Positions 13,704 to 15,963 of a DNA stretch of 34,110 nucleotides are shown one piece after another. The translations under genes were made by a program, and so were the position numbers. Origin of the DNA: Candidatus Microgenomates bacterium (lineage in GTDB: Bacteria; Patescibacteriota; JACPGU01); NCBI GenBank assembly GCA_016188915.1, contig JACPGU010000001.1:1-34110 (forward strand). Direction: 5' to 3'. A model generated the notes under the pieces. That model searched no databases. It saw nothing but the letters and a program-made list of their open reading frames with translations, and was not told where the DNA came from. Numbering within the stretch: the stretch's first letter is position 1; each line of letters begins with the position of its first letter.

Positions 13704-13727
13704 GAATTTCCCAGTTTCCGGAAACCG

Positions 13728-13763
13728 GACAGCAAAAAGCCCCCGGGGAGGGGACTTTCTTGT
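13728..13763 (-). terminator. Terminator of the RT gene; copy 1 of a 36-bp repeat
   Basis: Minus: AAAGTCCCC-tcccc-GGGGGCTTTTTG; 35/36 identical to 15331-15366. Confidence 0.85.
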
Positions 13764-13810
13764 TGGAGGATGTCTATGATTCCAGTAGTGAGATAGCCCA
13801 CGGAGCGATT

Positions 13811-15046
13811 TCACTGGGGTTTTGTATCGGAAAGGGGGATGGCCTTCAAATAATAAGGCTTAGCGCCAGTCATTTTCAGGAAATTAGCCATTGGTCGGCG
13901 CAATCTAGACGGCAAAAGTTTTGGCGGGAAAATACGACAGATGTGCGCCGTAATTCCCATGGCCGAACGAGACAGCTTTTCGTCGCCGGGATTCTGATAA
14001 GCGCTATGCAAAATCGCCCGAAAACGATCCTGATCCTTTCTTCGTAGGGTAATCTGTCGCCCTTCCAGCATCCTGACCGTTTGTATTGGCGGCCAATCAA
14101 TTTTCACGCGAAGACTCAAGCCCAACATTCTCGGCGAGCATTTATTTAAACGATAGTAGTGGATCTTTCCTCTGTTCACCGAGAAGGTATTGGGTTTTGC
14201 CTCTATCGCCGTCACAACTTTCTCTCGCACTTTTTTCGGGATAGGCTGATTGGACGAGATAATAATGTCGTCAGCGTAGATAGTGATAATCGGATGCTTG
14301 ATGCCATTATTTTCAAGAGCGAGATGGATTTTTTTGATTAGTCCGTCAGCATAGGTGGCGTAGACAAAAAAATCCGGAGAAGTAGGGGCGCCCTTGGGAA
14401 GAGAGTCTTTGTCGGTAATCAAGTCCACTACGGCAACAGTAAATTCATAGAGCAAATAAGTCAGATGACGATTGAGCTTGTACTGGAGAAAGTATCGGTG
14501 AAATCGACCACGAAGAAATTCTGCTTCGACATCTACGATAGATTGTCGATGCAAGAAGTGATTGCTGATGCTGGCATTAAATCGACCGCAGAGACTTTTG
14601 GAAAAAAGCTTACTTTTCTGAAACATGCTCTCCCGCCAAAGAATGCGCATCAAGGCAGGGAAGCATATTGTTATCAGAAAGTTTCTTTTTGTTGATCCGA
14701 AAGCGTTTTTCAGGTCTAGCTTGAAAAAGTATTCAGAGTCAGCGTGCGGATGGACTGCAGTCAAGATTGATTTGTTTCGCAAAAATCCATGAAAGCGATA
14801 GTAATGGTGGGTATTTGGATCAAATTTCTGAAAGACAAAATTGTCCATAAGTCTCAAGCCTATTATCCTGTGAAGCCGTTCCTGCACTACTTTCAGAATG
14901 GGAGTGGGTACCGAAATAGTATGCTTGCCCAATTTGTGGCTTCGGTAACGATCTTCGAGCAAAAGGATCTCAATGTATTCTTCTGGCGTAATATCCAGGA
15001 CTCGGCAAAGTAGTCGTTCTCCTTCAAGCAAACCTCTCTGGTCCAT
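13811..15046 (-). CDS. Retron/DRT-like reverse transcriptase
   Basis: RT1-like 'ISVPTPILKVVQERLHRII'; RT2/3 'HGFLRNKSILTAVHPHADSEYFFKLDLKNAF'; RT4 'LPKGAPTSP'; RT5 'IYADDIIIS'. Intact 411 aa. Confidence 0.93.
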   Translation of the reverse strand: MDQRGLLEGERLLCRVLDITPEEYIEILLLEDRYRSHKLGKHTISVPTPILKVVQERLHRIIGLRLMDNFVFQKFDPNTHHYYRFHGFLRNKSILTAVHPHADSEYFFKLDLKNAFGSTKRNFLITICFPALMRILWRESMFQKSKLFSKSLCGRFNASISNHFLHRQSIVDVEAEFLRGRFHRYFLQYKLNRHLTYLLYEFTVAVVDLITDKDSLPKGAPTSPDFFVYATYADGLIKKIHLALENNGIKHPIITIYADDIIISSNQPIPKKVREKVVTAIEAKPNTFSVNRGKIHYYRLNKCSPRMLGLSLRVKIDWPPIQTVRMLEGRQITLRRKDQDRFRAILHSAYQNPGDEKLSRSAMGITAHICRIFPPKLLPSRLRRPMANFLKMTGAKPYYLKAIPLSDTKPQ

Positions 15047-15113
15047 CTAGCCACCACCACCTTTCTGCCGGGATTTTTTTGAGCGAGATTTTAATATGCG
15101 AAAAGAAAAAAAA

Positions 15114-15291
15114 GGAGGGGGCAAGCAAACGCACCTTTTTTGAAACCACCCGCTACCCGCGCGAGCGGAAAGTTCCGGGGGAAATGCCGGTCCTTATAAA
15201 ATCCGTCGCAGGAAGCCCGCGACGACCCCTTTGGGGCTGGGGAGACAAATAGCACTCATCCCTTTTTCTGAGTTCTTGTCGCCCCCTCCAT
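15114..15291 (-). ncRNA. Structured RNA leader upstream of the RT (candidate msr-msd-like or DRT-type template RNA)
   Basis: Perfect 9-bp long-range inverted repeat GGAGGGGGC (15289-15281) / GCCCCCTCC (15122-15114) enclosing several hairpins; 5' end coincides with predicted +1. Confidence 0.65.
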
Positions 15292-15296
15292 AGAGT

Positions 15297-15325
15297 ATTT
15301 TACAAAAAAGACGATAAAATAGCAA
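15297..15325 (-). promoter_or_regulatory. Sigma70-type promoter for leader RNA + RT
   Basis: Minus: TTGCTA (15325-15320), 17-bp spacer, TAAAAT (15302-15297). Confidence 0.75.
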
Positions 15326-15330
15326 CTTCA

Positions 15331-15366
15331 GACAGCAAAAAGCCCCCGAGGAGGGGACTTTCTTGT
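15331..15366 (-). terminator. Terminator of the 78-aa/67-aa operon; copy 2 of a 36-bp repeat
   Basis: Minus: AAAGTCCCC-tcctc-GGGGGCTTTTTG. Confidence 0.85.
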
Positions 15367-15381
15367 CAGGGGGGGTCGGTT

Positions 15382-15585
15382 TTACCGCTTGATTCTTTTG
15401 ATTATTGGAGAGCCAACGTGGGCCATTCTCCTGCTGTTGCATTTGGGGCAAGGGGCCTTGGTAAAAGGGATATTGAAGCCGAGGAACCGTCTTAAGACAA
15501 AATAGGTACCTTGGCAGGCGGTACATTTCGTCTGTTGCCGAGTAAGTGGCGGAGTGAATTGTACCAGGGGATTTTTTGGTATCAT
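15382..15585 (-). CDS. Small zinc-ribbon protein (67 aa)
   Basis: CxxC...CxxC (KCTACQ...PCPKCN); SD-like GAGGTG before the ATG; 13 nt after the upstream ORF. Confidence 0.7.
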   Translation of the reverse strand: MIPKNPLVQFTPPLTRQQTKCTACQGTYFVLRRFLGFNIPFTKAPCPKCNSRRMAHVGSPIIKRIKR

Positions 15586-15598
15586 GGCTTCACCTCTT

Positions 15599-15835
15599 TC
15601 ATTGATCTAAGAATTTTCGAATAGTCTTTTCTGCGGTGGCCAAGTCATCTCCTGGTTTGATCAGCTTTCTCAGACCATTGGGCAGTGGCCCTCCTCTTTT
15701 GAATCGACCATTCCATAATGCCTGAGCGCGGTCAAGGCCGGTAGTTTTCATACTAATGTCGACCTCTATTTTTTTACCGCGCCGACATATTTTCTGCCAA
15801 AAGTCAAGGAACATCTTGGCGACTTTTTTTCCCAT
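15599..15835 (-). CDS. Hypothetical small basic protein (78 aa)
   Basis: SD-like GAGGTGG before the ATG; minus-strand promoter TTGAAA-17-TAAGAT upstream. Confidence 0.65.
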   Translation of the reverse strand: MGKKVAKMFLDFWQKICRRGKKIEVDISMKTTGLDRAQALWNGRFKRGGPLPNGLRKLIKPGDDLATAEKTIRKFLDQ

Positions 15836-15925
15836 AGTCCACCTCGGAGTGTTTTTTTGAGCTGTTAAGGAAGCGTCTATATCTTAGCTCTTGCCACAAC
15901 TTTTTTCAATAGGAAGCTTGATTTT

Positions 15926-15955
15926 TTGACAAAGGGCGGGAGGATAGTGTAAAGT
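15926..15955 (+). promoter_or_regulatory. Putative promoter of topA
   Basis: TTGACA (15926-15931), 18 bp, TAAAGT (15950-15955); ATG at 15964. Confidence 0.55.
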
Positions 15956-15963
15956 GGGCGAGT

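Follow-up and report, generated by a model that had tools for sequence, protein, structure and literature searches.

What is known of retrons concerns chiefly defence systems of three parts in ordinary bacteria, and the locus described here raises the question of whether a 769-kb genome of the phylum Patescibacteriota carries a relative of them composed of just an RNA and a reverse transcriptase (RT). In the stretch of 34,110 nt that was analysed—the window—an RNA with paired ends lies beside a retron-type RT, a layout that recurs in relatives. The RNA is probably the RT's own template and primer, the two together representing a stand-alone, divergent cousin of retrons, which are elements of phage defence. 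The parts of the cassette are as follows:

15114..15289, minus strand: retron-like ncRNA of 176 nt, recognised by its closing stem, a fold z-score of -2.4, a U8 tail and its site directly upstream of the retron-type RT
15279..15289, minus strand: a1-like arm GGAGGGGGCGA, pairing with 15124-15114 (P 0.81-1.0)
15114..15124, minus strand: a2-like arm UUGCCCCCUCC, partner of the a1-like arm in the fold
15106..15113, minus strand: U8 tract, possible 3' end of the RNA, read from the sequence directly after the closing stem
15297..15325, minus strand: promoter-like site (-35 TTGCTA, 17-nt spacer, -10 TAAAAT) from a consensus scan, weak evidence when taken alone
15225..15237, minus strand: msr-like hairpin GCCCC-AAA-GGGGU (P about 0.93 for the C-G pairs)
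15204..15224, minus strand: msr-like hairpin CGUCGCGGG-CUU-CCUGCGACG (P 0.96-1.0), positioned like a conserved hairpin of seven relatives
15134..15203, minus strand: msd-like part, the presumed cDNA template, with two short hairpins (CCGG...CCGG and CCGCU...AGCGG) in the folds; role assigned by analogy with retrons
15267..15270, minus strand: CAGA with the candidate priming guanosine G15268, proposed from its position in the fold directly after the extended closing stem
13811..15046, minus strand: retron-type RT of 411 aa, assigned from PADLOC, NCBIfam, Pfam RVT_1, a profile match to the Ec86 RT and alignment

The arms GGAGGGGGC (15289-15281) and GCCCCCTCC (15122-15114) of the minus strand pair perfectly over 9 bp, 158 nt apart; this long-range stem had been pointed out in the initial annotation and is borne out both by the sequence and by pair probabilities of at least 0.98. 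In the fold, the closing stem reaches 11 bp by the addition of one G-U and one A-U pair, the nine core pairs having probabilities of 0.98-1.0 and the two added ones 0.86 and 0.81, and it is continued inwards by an imperfect extension, GAAC-U-CA with UG-C-GUUU. It is the sole 9-bp stem in the window with at least eight G/C pairs and a span of 100-260 nt, for which shuffled sequences give an expectation of 0.2; in local shuffles, any such 9-bp stem occurred in 23 of 1000 sequences and one followed by at least six T in 2 of 1000. The 176-nt RNA as a whole is also more stable than its shuffled counterparts (z -2.4). The U8 tract described earlier as following the stem is indeed present, at 15113-15106, and 67 nt separate the end of the RNA from the start of the RT gene. 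As for the earlier proposal that the RNA starts at the stem, the one line of support is the promoter consensus, the site at 15325-15297 predicting a +1 near 15290. A search of the window against Rfam, with gathering and E-value thresholds, retrieved nothing relevant, and a DNA search for the RNA sequence in 40 relatives matched its own genome only.

Within the RNA, the list of inner hairpins given previously stands in part: CCCC-AAA-GGGG and CGUCGC...GCGACG are solid (P about 0.93 and about 1.0, respectively), those with CCGG and CCGCU are of moderate probability (P about 0.6), and GACAAG...UUUGUC is disfavoured in the fold, where its 5' half is taken up by the extension of the closing stem. 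One long msd hairpin of about 10-50 bp, by which retrons are recognised, is absent from the folds, two short hairpins being found instead. The remark in the initial annotation that serial short hairpins are atypical is correct with respect to classical retrons and their single long msd hairpin. Since short hairpins occur in this part in two of the relatives treated below as well (L034 and L029), they represent a feature of the group and not a reason for doubt. The canonical TAGC priming context is absent as well; the candidate CAGA named above, picked by eye, corresponds to the priming context in Retron-Eco2 (Ec67) (PMC6868368), which would be a likeness between the window RNA and that retron.

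Concerning the RT, its best PADLOC matches are retron RT models (top 6.5e-18), with no DRT model among the best, NCBIfam gives retron models at about 1e-13, and Pfam gives RVT_1 only. When a family profile built from the window RT and seven relatives from the phylum was compared with the PDB, the retron Ec86 RT was matched at 2e-44, group II intron RTs at 9e-17 and DRT2 at 1.4e-5; judged by these sequence comparisons, the window RT is retron-type, by many orders of magnitude over other RT groups. The single RT sequence matched one protein in the PDB, Retron-Eco2 (Ec67), in two deposited sequences and weakly (0.009). The alignment shows the catalytic residues to be intact (YADD at 257-260 and D111 of motif A). 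It also shows AVHPH in region X instead of NAXXH, of which H101 alone is kept, and MLG in region Y instead of VTG; each of the two motifs occurs in 14 of 16 validated retrons. Elsewhere in the phylum, region Y reads exactly VTG in L014 (the same gene as L003), ITG in L024 and MLG in L029 and L034. A large insertion lies between motifs A and B in the window RT and in L024, and less so in L002. The AlphaFold model of the RT is poor (pLDDT 47), and its fold matches, headed by retron RTs, would lend weak support at most. No effector domain was found in the RT with Pfam and PADLOC. It should be added that two other identities were considered and rejected: that of a group II intron, on account of the missing maturase domain (RVT_1 being the only Pfam match), the missing Rfam match and a profile match weaker than that to retrons, and membership of the DRT2 RT group, on account of the profile values given above for DRT2 and Ec86.

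Close homologues of the RT were not found in single-protein scans of viral and genome contigs or by tblastn against plasmids, and alignment-based scans gave only distant RTs; two other genomes of the same class, those covered by the search, had no RT match, nor did viral contigs scanned with the relatives L003 and L029/L034. A profile search did reveal 25 further, distant RTs, the matches lying in the window's genome and in 21 others of 389 genomes of the phylum. In the tree of these 26 RTs, that of the window groups with L014, L002 and L024 (94/93), all of them on long branches, and its identity to L014, L002, L029/L034 and L025 is about 19-28% where aligned. Strong long-range helices (z <= -2) are present upstream of 8 of the 26 RTs, the window included (17 bp in L034, 15 in L029, 15 in L014, 11 in L002, 12 in L025, 11 in L038, 11 in the window and 12 in L033), as against none of 24 downstream and none of 26 within-gene controls; by this simple test, the remaining 18 upstream regions, including that of L024 from the same clade, have no significant helix.

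The loci L014, L002, L029/L034 and L025 resemble the window in that a closing stem immediately precedes a gene for a retron-type RT, but differ from it in that arms and msd parts are unrelated in sequence and the U-tract after the stem is absent from all five. The perfect 15-bp stem of L014 and the 11-bp stem of L002, for example, are quite unlike the window's in sequence. Since the arms are unrelated between most loci, it is the pairing that is kept and not the sequence, and the stems of L029 and L034, whose RTs are 54% identical, differ by two compensatory pairs. In several loci (window, L025, L029, L034), a -10-like box lies a few bases ahead of the 5' arm. In the RNAs of L029 and L034, it is the 5' half that is conserved and the 3' half that varies, which resembles the behaviour of msr and msd in retrons. 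The likening of the window's stem to retron a1/a2 repeats, made at the outset from the one sequence, is accordingly in a better position than before: this phylum-wide comparison supports it, through the retron-type RT and the same layout, with unrelated arm sequences, beside related RTs.

A hairpin of the form YUGYCRG-loop-CUGRCRG is found upstream of seven RTs (L014, L020, L024, L027, L029, L034 and L035), covarying with all pairs kept and with changes on both sides, and L002 carries a similar one. The window hairpin at 15204..15224 matches the covariance model of the relatives' hairpin, R1, weakly (8 bits, E 0.088, in a search of 301 bases with filters off) and was not recovered when the whole window was searched with R1; the two are at best putative homologues. 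The L029 and L034 loci, from two genera, occupy the same chromosomal position, with nrdR on one side and, on the other, a gene of ~145 aa that precedes ftsZ. This indicates that the ncRNA and RT have been kept over a long time; the names nrdR and ftsZ, like dprA and topA below, are our presumed assignments, read off the protein sequences and not from library matches. In the surroundings of L014, L029 and L034, no recognised effector gene accompanies the closing stem and RT.

In the window, too, no effector gene adjoins the cassette, its neighbours being dprA, topA and two small genes. These and the repeats that bracket the cassette are:

15382-15585, minus strand: zinc ribbon ORF of 67 aa, preceding the cassette; below the Pfam cut-off, no PHROGs match
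15599-15835, minus strand: ORF of 78 aa with no function assigned, preceding the cassette; below the Pfam cut-off, no PHROGs match
15331..15366, unstranded: 36-bp direct repeat beside the RNA promoter, with the terminator of the upstream 67-aa gene; 35/36 identical to the other copy
13728..13763, unstranded: 36-bp direct repeat downstream of the RT, with the RT terminator; 35/36 identical to the other copy

The repeat, each copy of which contains an intrinsic terminator, has only these two copies genome-wide; it may have been left behind by an insertion or have arisen through recombination between terminators. A search of the other loci gave no flanking direct repeats. In G002, a genome of the same family, the dprA-topA gap measures 282 nt and holds neither RT, RNA, zinc ribbon nor 78-aa ORF, so that the 2.2-kb interval (13704-15963) was either inserted in the lineage of the window or lost in that of G002. 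The base composition of the RT gene is close to that of its neighbours. The 67-aa zinc ribbon was considered as a linked partner and set aside, the search having given no convincing relatives.

Retrons are defined by a ncRNA beside an RT, with complementary ends of about 8-30 nt (PMC6868368); the ends of the window RNA pair over 9-11 bp (P 0.81-1.0), and the RT is of the retron group with YADD. Like Ec86 (Retron-Eco1) and its relatives, the element has its RNA upstream of the RT on the same strand, complementary ends, and msr-like hairpins in the 5' half. Unlike in these retrons, NAXXH and VTG are inexact, the priming context is CAGA at best, and a single long msd hairpin and an adjacent effector are lacking. 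An effector gene or a fused effector domain is usual in retrons, not universal. The RT of Ec67, by comparison, has 596 aa with a Toprim effector domain, while that of the window has 411 and none. Because of the two divergent RT motifs and the missing long msd hairpin, the element is classed as a retron-like solo element and not as a retron.

A retron-like solo element of this kind, in which the paired-end RNA would act as primer and template for the downstream RT, is in our opinion the likely explanation. RNA polymerase would start near 15290 and the ends of the transcript would pair in the a1/a2-like manner, over 9-11 bp plus the imperfect extension. The RT encoded downstream would bind the msr-like hairpins of the 5' half and prime where retrons do, at the inner end of the stem, with G15268 in CAGA as the candidate guanosine. 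The 3' half (about 15134-15203) would serve as template for a short single-stranded DNA still attached to the RNA. Since no effector gene adjoins, an element serving in defence would have its effector encoded elsewhere, or the RNA-DNA-RT complex would act alone. Expression, the priming site, the extent of the cDNA, the production of msDNA and the use of the product are what we infer by analogy with known retrons.

The same features could be read differently if the RNA served the RT gene as a structured leader or attenuator and not as a template, with either the paired ends and U8, or the CGUCGC hairpin and the AUUUUAU after it, terminating transcription and setting RT expression. The U8 does follow the closing stem, a terminator-like site lies at 15225-15203, and separating the RNA from the RT requires some terminator; a stem of 9-11 bp closing a 158-nt loop would, however, be atypical of a terminator hairpin, and the relatives L014, L002, L025, L029 and L034 keep paired ends without the U-tract, so that what these loci have in common is the stem rather than termination. 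We consider such a leader unlikely. That the element is the remnant of a retron once acquired, now drifting and in decay after the loss of its effector and canonical motifs, seems somewhat less likely still: NAXXH and VTG are altered, the effector is missing and the cassette is missing from G002, but the 411-aa frame is intact with its catalytic residues, the stem is perfect, a promoter-like site is present, and MLG is shared with L029 and L034, whose ncRNA and RT persist at one chromosomal place in two genera.

A DRT-type system, in which no 2'-5' branch is formed and the RNA template is used otherwise, e.g. by a rolling mechanism or with a protein primer, would fit the altered retron-specific motifs of the RT, and an RT with ncRNA and no separate effector gene is the layout of DRT2 and DRT9 (PMC12039810, PMC12489045). 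Against this, the RT profile is retron-type by so wide a difference, with no DRT model among the best PADLOC matches, that we regard this reading as highly improbable. The window element also differs from these systems in an RT sequence far from that of DRT2 and in an RNA closed at its ends.

No description of retrons in Patescibacteria was found in the literature searched, the main retron classification paper (PMC7736814) lying outside that search. As a compact RNA and RT unit of about 1.5 kb, with no neighbouring effector and in a reduced genome, the retron-like solo element would offer a test of whether a linked toxin is needed for retron DNA to work, and elements of its type would supply new RT/RNA pairs for the production of DNA in cells. 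It may tentatively be suggested, as a rather doubtful generalisation, that effector-less retron-like elements are scattered in this phylum of small-genome bacteria between housekeeping genes, several of them with a shared msr-like hairpin and altered NAXXH/VTG, and that their RNA-DNA does something different from guarding a neighbouring toxin.

As to L025, its RT of 505 aa has both YADD and VTG and is extended by a long stretch at the C-terminus; a closing stem of 12 bp lies upstream, and this locus looks closer to a canonical retron.
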